Shown: piece by piece, positions 35,250-39,736 of the stretch
Numbering within the stretch: the first letter of the stretch is position 1
Layout: each line of letters begins with the position of its first letter
Assembly: GCA_028247015.1 (NCBI GenBank)
Contig: JAOKFJ010000009.1
Span: forward strand, 1 to 39,736
Origin: Methylophilaceae bacterium
GTDB taxonomy: Bacteria; Pseudomonadota; Gammaproteobacteria; Burkholderiales; Methylophilaceae
Direction: 5' to 3'
Length of the DNA stretch: 39,736 nt
Notes under the pieces: generated by a model
The model's input: only the letters and a program-made list of their open reading frames with translations
Told to the model about the DNA's origin: nothing
The model's database searches: none
Position numbers and translations under genes: made by a program

Positions 35250-35885
35250 ATGAAAAAATTATTATTAGCATTTTTAGTGATCATCGCAAATACTGGTATT
35301 GGTATTGCTGTCGAGCCTAAACCAGGAATTAATTTTAAAGCTACTAATGAAACTATTGAGACTAATTCTGGAAATAAAATTGAAGTTGTTGAGTTGTTTT
35401 GGTACGGCTGTATTCATTGCTACACGATGGATCCATATTTAGACAAATGGGCTGATAAATTACCAAAAGATGTTGTGTTTAAAAGAATTCCTGCTATTCC
35501 AAGAAAAAACTGGGCTCCAGGAGCCAAAGCCTACTATGCATTAGAAACACTAGATTTAGACCATAAGCTACATGAAAGGTTATTTAAGGCAATTCATAAA
35601 GAAAAAACTCTAAATCCTGTCGATCAAAAAGGTCTAGTAAAATGGATTGCAGCCAATGGAAAATTAGATATAACTGAAGTTAATTCAGCCTTTAACTCTT
35701 TTTCTATGAATGCTAAATTATCACGCTCAGCCAAGATGTTTAAAGCGGCCGGAGCCACAGGAGTTCCAAGTATTATTATAGATGGACGTTATCTAACTTC
35801 TAGTACAATGGCTGGTGGTGAACAAAACACAATTGATATAATGAATTATATTATCAACAATATTCGAAAAGAAAAAACAAAATAA
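35250..35885 (+). CDS. dsbA: Thiol:disulfide interchange protein DsbA
   Basis: A 211-residue periplasmic oxidase introducing disulfides. It has a signal peptide (about 1-20), an active site CIHC (Cys54, Cys57) in FWYGCIHCYTM and the cis-Pro loop GATGVPSIIIDG. Length is typical. The central dipeptide Ile-His differs from the Pro-His of E. coli DsbA and should change the redox potential. It lies 16 bases after the SPOR gene, behind a GGAG ribosome site. It could act on Cys-bearing exported proteins in this window. Confidence 0.94.
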   Translation: MKKLLLAFLVIIANTGIGIAVEPKPGINFKATNETIETNSGNKIEVVELFWYGCIHCYTMDPYLDKWADKLPKDVVFKRIPAIPRKNWAPGAKAYYALETLDLDHKLHERLFKAIHKEKTLNPVDQKGLVKWIAANGKLDITEVNSAFNSFSMNAKLSRSAKMFKAAGATGVPSIIIDGRYLTSSTMAGGEQNTIDIMNYIINNIRKEKTK

Positions 35886-35894
35886 TAGGCCTTT

Positions 35895-36659
35895 ATGGCG
35901 CTCAAAATTATAATAACAGGTGCCAGTTCTGGAATAGGACAGGCCCTTGCAAAAGAATACGACAAGAAAGATGTTGTAATTGGACTTCTTGCCAGACGTA
36001 AAGATAAGCTAATCGAGCTACAAAAAACTCTTTCGTGCAAATCTCTAATTTTTTCTGTTGATGTTACAGACCTTGCTCAATGCAGACGGGCCGCAGAAGA
36101 ATTTATGGCGCTTCATGGCACGCCTGATATTGTTATTGCCAACGCAGGTATTAGCTCAGGTACACTTACTGAAAATTTTTCTGACCTAGTTACTTTTAAA
36201 AAAATTATTGCTACAAATTTAATTGGGGTTACTCATACATTTTATCCATTTATCCAGCCCTTTAGAAAAAGAGGCTCCGGTCACTTTATTGGAATATCGA
36301 GCGTTGCAGGTATCCGAGGTATACCTGGAGCAGGTGCCTATAGTGCATCAAAAGCAGCTCTTATTAACTATCTAGAAAGTCTACGTATTGAGCTTTCAAC
36401 CTCTAATATTAATGTTACAACAATTGCACCAGGCTACATTACAACCCCTATGACTGATGCAAACCAATATTCAATGCCTTTTCTTATGCCAGTTGATAAA
36501 GCTGCACAAGCCATGGTTAGAGCTATTAAAAAGAAAAAGAAATTTATCGTTATTCCATGGCAAATGAATTTTATCGCGAGAATCATGCGCCTCCTTCCAA
36601 TCTCAGTTTGGGATCTTCTTGCTAAAAAAGCGCCTCGAAAAAAAACTATTTCTCTATAA
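35895..36659 (+). CDS. Short-chain dehydrogenase/reductase
   Basis: A 254-residue classical SDR with Rossmann motif TGASSGIG (8-15), NAGISSG (83-89), and a catalytic set Ser136, Tyr149 and Lys153 in YSASK. The substrate is not predictable. A basic C-terminal tail (KKKKKF, then PRKKTISL) and a hydrophobic stretch (WQMNFIARIMRLLPISVW) suggest peripheral membrane attachment. It follows dsbA by nine bases. Confidence 0.9.
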   Translation: MALKIIITGASSGIGQALAKEYDKKDVVIGLLARRKDKLIELQKTLSCKSLIFSVDVTDLAQCRRAAEEFMALHGTPDIVIANAGISSGTLTENFSDLVTFKKIIATNLIGVTHTFYPFIQPFRKRGSGHFIGISSVAGIRGIPGAGAYSASKAALINYLESLRIELSTSNINVTTIAPGYITTPMTDANQYSMPFLMPVDKAAQAMVRAIKKKKKFIVIPWQMNFIARIMRLLPISVWDLLAKKAPRKKTISL

Positions 36660-36764: not shown

Positions 36765-38519
36765 ATGTTAGAACACCGTACGCCTAAGAATAGCAGCGAC
36801 TTCATCGCAATTTTAATTACTAAATTTTTACGTTTTTTTGCAGACACTTTTTTTTCAAAGCGTTACGGTCACCGTGCGGTAGTTCTCGAAACAGTAGCGG
36901 CAGTCCCTGGTATGGTAGCTGGAATGTGGATTCATTTAAAATGCTTACGAAAAATGGAACACGATAGGGGTTGGATTAAAATATTACTGGACGAAGCAGA
37001 AAACGAACGTATGCATTTAATGACTTTTATTGAAATTGCAAAGCCCAACTGGTTTGAACGCGCTCTAATTTTAATTGCACAAGCAATTTTTTGGCACTTC
37101 TATTTCATCATTTATATATTTTTTCCTCGTACAGCTCATCGTATCGTTGGTTACTTTGAAGAAGAGGCCGTGTTAAGTTATACATCATATCTAGAACAAG
37201 TTGAAAGTAATCCTGCTCTTAATGTTGATGCCCCTCAAATTGCTATTGATTATTGGAAGCTTAAGAGTGACGCCAAATTGATTGATGTTATTAAAGTAGT
37301 TCGCAATGACGAAAAAGGGCACGCCATTGTTAATCATAATCTTGCAGATATCCTCGACGAAGATGCCAATAAAAAACATATAAAAAAAATTGAATTAAAA
37401 AAAGAAGAACCTAAATTTGACTCTACACCAGAAGGTTCTAATACTTCACGTTATAATCAATTTCATTTAGGTGATCTTATATTTTTTAATCGGATTGTCA
37501 TGGCACCATTAACACGAAATCGTGCAACACCTGAAGGGGTCCCGACTTCAATAATGACCACCTACTACGAGCAGCGCGCTAGTGCTGGACTTGTTATTGC
37601 TGAAGCAACTCAGATAAGCCAACAAGGCCAAGGTTACTACTGCACACCTGGTATTTATTCTGAAGTACAAACTAAAGGCTGGAAAAATATTGTAGATGCG
37701 GTTCATACACGTGGCGGGAAAATCTGCTTACAACTCTGGCATGTAGGGCGTATTTCGCATAATGAATTTCAACCAAACCAAGGGCAACCAGTAGCCCCCT
37801 CCGCCATTAAAGCAAATGCACAAGTCTTTACTTCCTCTGGATTAACTGATGTATCAGAACCACGATCCTTAATGGCATATGAAATTCCTTTAATTATTGA
37901 AGAATATAGACAGGCTGCTGTAAATGCTAAAAAAGCAGGCTTTGATATGGTGGAGATTCATGGCGCTAATGGTTATCTCGTAGATCAATTTTTACGTGAT
38001 AGCACTAATGTTCGAGCCGATGACTATGGAGGTTCGATTGAAAATCGTACACGATTCTTATTGGAAATCGTTGATGCAGTCTCAACCATTTATCCTCCTA
38101 AACGTATTGGCTGCCGTATTGGTCCATCATCAGAATTCAATGATATTCGAGATTCTGATCCACAGACCCTATTTAACTTTGTAGCAGAGCAACTTGGACA
38201 AAAAGGCTTAGGCTATATACATGTAATTGAAGGCCAAACTGGTGGGGATAGAAATACCACAGCGTTTGACTATAATAAAATTTATCAAAGTTTTAAAACG
38301 CACGGTGGTGTTGCGACTATGGCAAACAACGGTTACGATAGACATTTATCAGAAAAAACGATGGTAGATTTAGTAGCTTTTGGCGTACCTTTTATAGCTA
38401 ATCCAGATTTAGTGTATCGCCTAGAACATAACTTACCCCTTGCAAATGCTGATAAGACCACTTTTTATGGAGGAACTGAAAAAGGCTATTCAGATTATCC
38501 ATTTTACTCAAAAGAATAG
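36765..38519 (+). CDS. Alternative oxidase-Old Yellow Enzyme fusion
   Basis: A 584-residue two-domain protein. Residues 1-195 form a diiron alternative oxidase (ubiquinol to oxygen, non-proton-pumping): Glu42 in LETVAAVPGM, Glu81/His84 in NERMHL, a Glu in FEEEAV (132-134) and Glu183/His186 in DEKGH give all six iron ligands, with hydrophobic helices near 98-121. A Lys/Glu-rich linker (about 200-228) leads to an Old Yellow Enzyme FMN barrel (231-570): NRIVMAPLTRNRA, LQLWHVGR, and HGANGYLVDQFLRDS with His399/Asn402/Tyr404. No in-frame start exists between the domains before Met246, inside the first barrel strand, so the fusion is genuine in this sequence. A clear ribosome site (AAAGG) precedes the ATG. 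What the flavin domain reduces is unknown. Confidence 0.93.
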   Translation: MLEHRTPKNSSDFIAILITKFLRFFADTFFSKRYGHRAVVLETVAAVPGMVAGMWIHLKCLRKMEHDRGWIKILLDEAENERMHLMTFIEIAKPNWFERALILIAQAIFWHFYFIIYIFFPRTAHRIVGYFEEEAVLSYTSYLEQVESNPALNVDAPQIAIDYWKLKSDAKLIDVIKVVRNDEKGHAIVNHNLADILDEDANKKHIKKIELKKEEPKFDSTPEGSNTSRYNQFHLGDLIFFNRIVMAPLTRNRATPEGVPTSIMTTYYEQRASAGLVIAEATQISQQGQGYYCTPGIYSEVQTKGWKNIVDAVHTRGGKICLQLWHVGRISHNEFQPNQGQPVAPSAIKANAQVFTSSGLTDVSEPRSLMAYEIPLIIEEYRQAAVNAKKAGFDMVEIHGANGYLVDQFLRDSTNVRADDYGGSIENRTRFLLEIVDAVSTIYPPKRIGCRIGPSSEFNDIRDSDPQTLFNFVAEQLGQKGLGYIHVIEGQTGGDRNTTAFDYNKIYQSFKTHGGVATMANNGYDRHLSEKTMVDLVAFGVPFIANPDLVYRLEHNLPLANADKTTFYGGTEKGYSDYPFYSKE

Positions 38520-38533
38520 GCCTAATTTATTCT

Positions 38534-39364
38534 ATGCTTAATATTAAAAATATATTAATAATCTGCCTTTTAAATATAGGCCTTGTAAACACTTTATTGG
38601 CTAATCAGATCGGTGATACTGCACCTAATTTTACCGCTATGACTACGAAGGGAGAAATCAACTTCCATGCCTGGAGTAATAAAAAATGGGTTGTACTGTT
38701 TTCACATCCCAGTGACTTTACTCCTGTATGTACTACTGAATTAGCACAAGTTGCCAAACTTCAACCCGAGTTTAAAAAAAGAAACGTAAAAGTAATCGCC
38801 CTTAGTGTTGATTCTCTTGAAGATCATAAAGAATGGATTCCAGATATCAATCGATATAAAGATAAGATTAAAGAAAAAAATACTTTAGATAAAATTATTA
38901 CTAATTTTACTAAAAATACTGACGTTGACTTTCCATTAATATCTGATGAAAAATTTGAAGTTGCCAGTCTTTATGGAATGTTCCATCCAAAAGCTAAGCC
39001 TAATCTAGGCTCTTTTGGTAATATAGATAAAGCCACTATTCGTTCAGTATTTATTATTGACCCAAGTAAAATAATCCAAACTATTTTAATTTATCCAAAA
39101 AATATTGGCAGAAACTTTGATGAGATTATTAGAATTGTTGATGCACTTCAACTATCTGAAAAGTATAACGTATCAACCCCTGCTAATTGGCAAATGGGAG
39201 ATCCTGTAATAGTTTCGAACGATATTCCCCCAGAAAACATCCAAGAAAAATTTGATACTGATGGAGTTATATTTTTTGAGGATTATCTAAAGATGGTAGA
39301 TCAACCAGGTTACTTTGGCGGCTCAAAAGAAGGCAAGTCTCGAACAAAAGGAAATTTTAAATAG
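38534..39364 (+). CDS. Exported Prx6-type (1-Cys) peroxiredoxin
   Basis: A 276-residue peroxiredoxin. The peroxidatic Cys66 is in HPSDFTPVCTTEL (the P-x3-T-x2-C motif), and RSVFIIDPSK and the C-terminal arm mark the Prx6 branch, which reduces hydrogen and organic peroxides. Two oddities: a signal peptide (about 1-23, LLANQ) predicts a periplasmic protein, whereas most Prx6 members are cytosolic and about 210-220 residues; and a Lys-rich insertion (about 105-130) plus a C-terminal extension (EGKSRTKGNFK) lengthen it. It starts 14 bases after the oxidase-flavoprotein fusion, probably on the same transcript. Confidence 0.9.
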   Translation: MLNIKNILIICLLNIGLVNTLLANQIGDTAPNFTAMTTKGEINFHAWSNKKWVVLFSHPSDFTPVCTTELAQVAKLQPEFKKRNVKVIALSVDSLEDHKEWIPDINRYKDKIKEKNTLDKIITNFTKNTDVDFPLISDEKFEVASLYGMFHPKAKPNLGSFGNIDKATIRSVFIIDPSKIIQTILIYPKNIGRNFDEIIRIVDALQLSEKYNVSTPANWQMGDPVIVSNDIPPENIQEKFDTDGVIFFEDYLKMVDQPGYFGGSKEGKSRTKGNFK

Positions 39365-39387: not shown

Positions 39388-39736
39388 TCATCTTATTAAT
39401 AATAATTGAGGTCTCGCATCTTCACTGCACCAAATAATTGCATTTTGATTGTAATTAATTCCTAAATTAGTAGATTGCTCTTGAGTAATACCGAAAATTA
39501 AATAACTTTCTTCACCCACTTTATCGCTTTCATCACATCGGCCATCACCCTTTATATAATTAAAATTAAACCGTTGAATCTCTAACTCTAGTTGCTGATT
39601 TCTAATTTTGTTTTCTTTTAAGTTTAATTCTTCACTTTGTGGGTTAAATGCTGTTATAAAAGCTGCTGATTTTTTTTTAAACTTATGCATTAATTTTTTA
39701 AGCTCAGCACTATATTGGCTCACTTTAAAAATAAAT
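39388..39736 (-). CDS. DUF3293 protein, probably truncated by the window edge
   Basis: A minus-strand gene whose C-terminal part, AAFITAFNPQSEELN through IFGI and the WCSEDARPQLLL end, matches DUF3293, a family of unknown function. A GTG at 39723 would give 111 residues, but the frame stays open to the window end and family members usually have about 25 more N-terminal residues before AAFITA. The true start is therefore probably outside. It converges on the peroxiredoxin gene with only 23 bases between the stops and no clear terminator. Confidence 0.75.
   Translation of the reverse strand, partial: FIFKVSQYSAELKKLMHKFKKKSAAFITAFNPQSEELNLKENKIRNQQLELEIQRFNFNYIKGDGRCDESDKVGEESYLIFGITQEQSTNLGINYNQNAIIWCSEDARPQLLLIR

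Follow-up and report, generated by a model that had tools for sequence, protein, structure and literature searches.

An alternative oxidase joined in frame to an Old Yellow Enzyme flavoprotein in coastal marine Methylophilaceae

Described relatives and architecture of the fused protein

To our knowledge, alternative oxidase (AOX) is known only as a single-domain enzyme, and we are aware of no respiratory role for the Old Yellow Enzyme (OYE) family, whose natural role is an old open question. The nearest solved chains to the AOX half of the gene described here are those of trypanosome AOX (3vv9, 9kun; E 4e-48), and the solved AOX chains that we found carry no OYE domain, whereas the protein studied here continues into a C-terminal flavoprotein. 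The OYE half resembles NerA (4jic, 4jiq), XdpB (5epd) and NostocER1 (6uff) at 49-52% identity (Foldseek) and rmsd 1.5-1.7, with the catalytic residues kept; phmmer E-values for 5epd, 4jic and 6uff range from 6e-120 to 4e-115 (6.4e-120 for 5epd), and Foldseek aligned it to NerA 4jiq with E 3.5e-45, TMt 0.93 and rmsd 1.5. These solved chains comprise OYE enzymes of the glycerol trinitrate reductase type as well as bacterial ene-reductases, and the fused OYE differs from them in being joined to a membrane oxidase. A natural fusion of comparable make-up is the Trichomonas flavodiiron-rubredoxin-reductase, which likewise places a diiron oxygen reductase and a flavin NADH oxidoreductase on one chain and whose activity as a water-forming NADH oxidase is demonstrated in the accessible part of its report (PMC9364112). 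Its folds are unrelated to those of AOX-OYE, it is not membrane bound and it relays electrons through rubredoxin rather than quinone (PMC9364112).

The window, by which we mean the whole 39,736-nucleotide stretch of Methylophilaceae DNA that was analysed, holds both domains in a single frame of 584 residues (Table 1), and the profile matches and the residues read place the diiron and flavin sites on one chain, as the original prediction had claimed. The Pfam profile PF01786 (AOX) matches residues 2-195 over its whole length (11-216 of 216, E 9.5e-78), and PF00724 (Oxidored_FMN) matches residues 234-559 (7-341 of 342, E 1.7e-73), i.e., a complete barrel, which had also been proposed. All six diiron positions that had been reported can be read in the sequence (E42, E81, H84, E132, E183 and H186, which we take to be the AOX diiron ligands), and the alignment with the trypanosome chains spans the whole domain, including these six positions as well as R23, D27 and R37, presumably the counterparts of AOX quinol-pocket residues. 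The catalytic positions of the OYE are filled by T250, Q323, W325, H399, N402, Y404 and R451, whose roles we assume from OYE1.

The linker is charged, in agreement with the prediction (K, R, D or E at 16 of the 35 residues 196-230), and the stated lack of a start codon for a separate flavoprotein was borne out, with no in-frame ATG, GTG, TTG or CTG in codons 190-245 and the first ATG past the linker at codon 246, within the conserved MAPLTR strand of the OYE. The AlphaFold model of the fusion (mean pLDDT 84.6, pTM 0.63) is good for each domain, and in the model of the OYE domain pLDDT exceeds 90 across most residues. Residues 203-226 of the linker are predicted to be disordered (pLDDT <50), and the arrangement of the domains in the model is unreliable because of the pTM of 0.63.

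In contrast to stand-alone OYE, the fused domain is four residues shorter ahead of the DLVAFG strand (relative to the stand-alone rows shown) and has a valine near the FMN phosphate, V541 being present in all five tabulated fusions against arginine in 40 of 49 stand-alone rows; the fragment from genome G009 also has V at this position, and genome G046 has I. An arginine near the FMN phosphate is common in OYE without being strictly defining. Since V is also found in L026, the closest stand-alone OYE relative, and the solved relatives have T (6uff) or K (4jic), V541 is no evidence of a dead flavin site, and a dead flavin domain on this account is unsupported.

Table 1 Features of the fusion gene and its neighbours in the window.
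Feature	Position	Strand	Basis or remark
AOX-OYE fusion gene	36765..38519	+	ATG start, 584 aa, stop codon included
Alternative oxidase (AOX) domain, residues 1-198	36765..37358	+	Pfam PF01786; trypanosome AOX alignment
Charged linker, residues 199-229	37359..37451	+	Alignment; disorder predicted at 203-226
Old Yellow Enzyme (OYE) domain, FMN ene-reductase, residues 230-584	37452..38516	+	Pfam PF00724, phmmer, Foldseek
DsbA-type thiol oxidoreductase	35250..35885	+	Left border of variable slot
Short-chain dehydrogenase (SDR, NCBIfam NF005437)	35895..36659	+	Upstream of fusion
1-Cys-type peroxiredoxin	38534..39364	+	14 bases downstream of fusion
DUF3293 gene, probably cut by window end	39388..39735	-	Kin of domain fused to AOX in sister clade

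Inheritance and distribution of the fusion

AOX-OYE is a genuine inherited two-domain gene. The original prediction had cautioned that an assembly error at A-runs in the linker could have joined two genes, and such runs are indeed present in the linker DNA, but an assembly or sequencing artefact that fused two adjacent genes has next to no probability, being refuted by independent genomes that carry the fusion (seven, including an isolate, with open frames of 584, 584, 593 and 588 residues in G000, G005, G015 and G044), and the lack of a start codon for a separate flavoprotein also speaks against it. That the fusion is kept by selection is supported by low dN/dS in both halves. Estimated by NG86 over the four unsaturated close pairs (window/G044, window/G005, G044/G005 and G015/G041), dN/dS ranged from 0.013 to 0.073 for the AOX half, from 0.061 to 0.097 for the OYE half and from 0.02 to 0.26 for the linker, and these values point to strong purifying selection on the AOX and OYE halves alike. 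The pair window/G015 was saturated in all parts; window/G009 was saturated in AOX and linker, with an OYE value of 0.065 over 85 codons, and window/G046 gave 0.115 for AOX, 0.087 for OYE and 1.06 for the linker (25 codons). A chance ORF is ruled out by the profile scores together with selection.

Our sample comprised the 31 genomes of the window's genus and the 187 genomes of its family, the window's own genome being 62% complete in 28 contigs. AOX was present in 52 of the 187 family genomes and in 18 of the 31 in the genus, and the fusion in seven of these 31: G000, G005 (AH-541-D17, Methylophilaceae), G009 (bin.678, Methylophilales), G015 (Methylophilales bacterium HTCC2181), G041 (UBA4017, Methylophilales), G044 (Methylophilaceae bacterium cluster2_bin.246) and G046. 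HTCC2181, which NCBI places in the OM43 clade, is an isolate (PMC10872708) and has been grown on methanol (PMC5120137), according to the accessible parts of these papers. The fusions of G000, G005, G015 and G044 are complete (the frame lengths given above run stop to stop), that of G041 is cut by a contig start (569 residues, the first 20 missing), and that of G009 by a contig end (314 residues), with an OYE end on a second contig that we take to be its remainder. In G046 the frame counts 582 residues, and a stop immediately ahead of about residue 6 means that the start is either damaged or misread; this genome (locus L219) also has K at the position of diiron E183 and an ArgS broken into four frames, defects that are likely sequencing error in an error-prone assembly, decay being possible. 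The fusions of five relatives are 72-90% identical to the window protein, and that of G046 is more distant (70% identity between the OYE domains over 344 columns).

Relatives in which the two domains are always separate genes had been named as grounds for doubt, and the genus shows the opposite, with seven of 31 genomes fused and none carrying a stand-alone OYE. All PF00724 matches in the genus fall inside AOX fusions, in these same seven genomes (the match of G009 being in two pieces on two contigs), although absences are soft because 12 of the 18 AOX genomes are <90% complete. A search for the same two-domain architecture with a conserved linker had been proposed as a check; the architecture recurs in the seven genus genomes, and a motif, K(K/R)EEP.F, is present in all seven, but the linker otherwise varies in length and sequence across the alignment, and no fusion was found outside the genus. 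None of the 34 AOX-bearing family genomes outside the genus carried it (longest frame 290 residues), nor, judged by frame length, did any of 34 AOX-bearing genomes outside the family (longest 343 residues), drawn from samples of 399 genomes in the order (8 with AOX), 369 in the class (9) and 398 in the phylum (17 more). A scan of genome contigs found five of 37 AOX loci fused among the matches listed (79 loci; 80 of 214 relatives), and all five, again among the matches listed, came from Methylophilaceae or Methylophilales. No AOX locus in a viral collection extended into an OYE (0 of 80, the best 80 of 81), and no place covering 80% of the query was found in any of 2444 plasmid records or 44 phage records. 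We thus reject the fusion as a widespread AOX form, having found none beyond the genus in the family, order, class, phylum, viral, plasmid and phage samples. Separately, many putatively viral contigs in that collection carry an AOX gene, with identity reaching 69% across the domain and 75% in one short piece among the best 80 of 81.

The open literature searched held no description of AOX-OYE, of AOX in HTCC2181 or OM43, or of AOX-DUF3293 (DUF3293 was no query term), consistent with the claim that the pairing had no prior description; with the sequence of HTCC2181 publicly available, the pairing may already appear in automated domain listings. The papers on OM43 or Methylophilaceae that were searched, among them PMC10872708, PMC5120137 and PMC6794327, mention neither Old Yellow Enzyme nor alternative oxidase in their accessible main text.

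Origin of the fusion and exchange with cytochrome bd

In the OYE tree (54 rows, G009 left out as split) the six fused rows form one clade (100/100), whose sister is L026, a stand-alone OYE from a betaproteobacterial MAG (100/97). The AOX of the genus likewise form one clade (100/96 in the first of two AOX trees, which differ in branch order at its base), and they occur in several forms: AOX-OYE in seven genomes, AOX alone in four, AOX-DUF3293 in six, and a 62-residue remnant in G002. The AOX-DUF3293 fusions make up a sister clade (G014, G017, G019, G022, G023 and G024; loci L224-L229), with DUF3293 (PF11697) matched by Pfam in G014 and G023 and by phmmer in the other four. They share with AOX-OYE the locus, an orthologous AOX and a linker stretch that reads KKEP or KQEP, against KKEEP in the AOX-OYE fusions (KREEP in G009), and they differ in their C-terminal domain, DUF3293, a domain of unknown function.

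The AOX of G046 groups with the DUF3293 clade (100/97 and 100/99 in the two trees), yet this genome carries OYE, and directly after its fusion, on the same strand, lie a separate DUF3293 gene and then the small gene that also follows DUF3293 in the other clade. The simplest account is that an ancestral AOX-OYE adjoined DUF3293 and that one branch lost OYE by an in-frame deletion and another had it cut off, the sister clade's AOX-DUF3293 probably having arisen after OYE loss; the reverse order, with AOX-DUF3293 first and OYE inserted later, is possible. A single clade of the seven fused AOX was rejected by the AU test (p 0.006), as expected under an ancestral AOX-OYE with OYE loss, but the rejection hinges on the long-branch G046, without which p is 0.48.

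The gene order ArgS-SPOR-DsbA-(SDR)-AOX is found in 17 of the 18 AOX genomes, with G041 split over contigs; no SDR was found at the locus in G046, in the genomes with AOX alone or in those with AOX-DUF3293. Six of the seven fused genomes have the peroxiredoxin downstream of OYE, in the window perhaps on the fusion transcript, and G046 has DUF3293 there; a stand-alone DUF3293 gene lies near AOX-OYE in the window, G044 and G046. By eye, the N-terminus of the peroxiredoxin resembles a signal peptide, which would make the protein periplasmic, alongside DsbA.

Cytochrome bd (cydAB), an energy-conserving haem protein unrelated to AOX, holds the same slot in seven relatives (G001, G003, G006, G007, G008, G012 and G016; L273-L279), in the order ArgS-SPOR-DsbA-SDR-cydA-cydB (cydB named by eye), and the SDR of bd genomes stands before cydAB or before a rubrerythrin-like gene. 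Genomes G020, G042 and G045, which the ArgS tree places inside its AOX-OYE group with unstarred support (92/93 and 86/85), have bd on another contig; at their locus a rubrerythrin-like, an iron-sulphur oxidoreductase-like and a further gene (all three by eye) precede the peroxiredoxin. With these three genes, judged by eye and present at the locus in G020, G042, G045 and G041 (L281, L282, L283 and L287), the locus looks like a redox-stress island.

AOX and cytochrome bd were never found together in the 31 genomes: 18 have AOX (only the remnant in G002), 10 have cytochrome bd subunit I and three (G011, G021 and G013) have neither, giving a Fisher p of 6.4e-6 that overstates the exclusion because the ArgS tree (28 genomes) implies only about two independent switches. 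The 14 genomes that are >=90% complete and <=5% contaminated divide into six with AOX, seven with bd and one with neither. At 99% completeness, G011 (L280) has neither oxidase, with no SDR, AOX or cydAB behind its DsbA. COX1 was matched in 28 of the 31 genomes (unmatched in G000, G009 and G010), and in HTCC2181 it adjoins a CtaG-like gene and a COX2 ending in a CxxCH part (by eye), which makes it look like a cytochrome c oxidase rather than a rival quinol oxidase. AOX is the sole quinol oxidase found in the AOX genomes (the type of COX1 was read in HTCC2181 only), which supports a real respiratory role for the AOX half, and as AOX and bd never co-occur and cydAB occupies the same slot, the AOX half probably serves the cell as its non-pumping quinol oxidase.

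Proposed activity and alternatives

The reading that we lean towards, with a little better than even confidence, is that of a bifunctional membrane enzyme in which a quinol oxidase would tether an NAD(P)H-dependent ene/quinone reductase. Judged from its family, the AOX half would lie on the cytoplasmic side of the inner membrane and there oxidise ubiquinol with oxygen, with no proton pumping, taking the place that cytochrome bd has elsewhere in the genus. The OYE half, on its flexible charged tether, would pass electrons from NAD(P)H to FMN and reduce quinones or unsaturated carbonyls near the membrane. The genes around the fusion have thiol and peroxide redox functions, and the neighbours DsbA, SDR and peroxiredoxin suggest for the OYE half a role in redox or electrophile stress. 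The activity of both halves, the topology and the OYE substrates are what we infer. Because AOX is kept without OYE in four genomes and with DUF3293 in six, the AOX-OYE pairing is dispensable, and the AOX half needs no OYE as its electron donor. The earlier suggestion that the oxidase keeps the quinone pool oxidised as the flavin domain detoxifies fits at least as well as an electron relay between the halves.

Such a relay had been proposed as well, namely a self-contained NAD(P)H:oxygen oxidoreductase in which the OYE would reduce ubiquinone and the AOX of the same or a dimer-partner chain would re-oxidise the quinol, so that excess reductant would be burnt and no ATP made; we regard this as a serious but unlikely alternative. 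Most quinones on which OYE enzymes have been tested are small, soluble compounds, and reduction of ubiquinone by these enzymes is not established, which weighs against it, as do the long linker predicted to be disordered and the relatives that keep AOX at the same locus without OYE, an arrangement that is nonetheless possibly compatible with a relay in the fused form. The relay gains from both catalytic sites looking complete, from an OYE never found apart from AOX in the 31 genus genomes, and from the existence, in another protein class, of a water-forming NADH oxidase whose diiron and flavin parts are naturally joined (accessible part of PMC9364112), and it loses from the presence in HTCC2181 of another quinone reductase, NQR (accessible part of PMC6794327). 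That the protein would be a membrane-bound NAD(P)H:ubiquinone:oxygen oxidoreductase, i.e., a one-gene respiratory bypass in the place of cytochrome bd with OYE as its quinone reductase, seems to us slightly less probable again.

More doubtful than either is the view that the OYE is a passenger, for which the join would give co-expression and membrane anchoring only, and which would act on soluble enals, nitro compounds or quinones. The sister lineages that lack OYE or have DUF3293 in its place, and a linker that varies in length and sequence, are in its favour, but the strong selection that maintains both halves despite the small genomes and the lack of a lone OYE in the 31 genomes argue against it.

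The bifunctional enzyme that we favour and the relay can both be followed up in culture, since the fusion is present in the isolate HTCC2181, where a one-gene NAD(P)H-to-oxygen route and a natural OYE role are directly testable; if the relay were true, OYE domains would gain a respiratory role. The carriers of the fusion are small-genome, methanol-using coastal marine bacteria, and, with AOX and cytochrome bd replacing each other at a single locus, their very small genomes offer a natural comparison between a quinol oxidase that wastes energy and one that conserves it.
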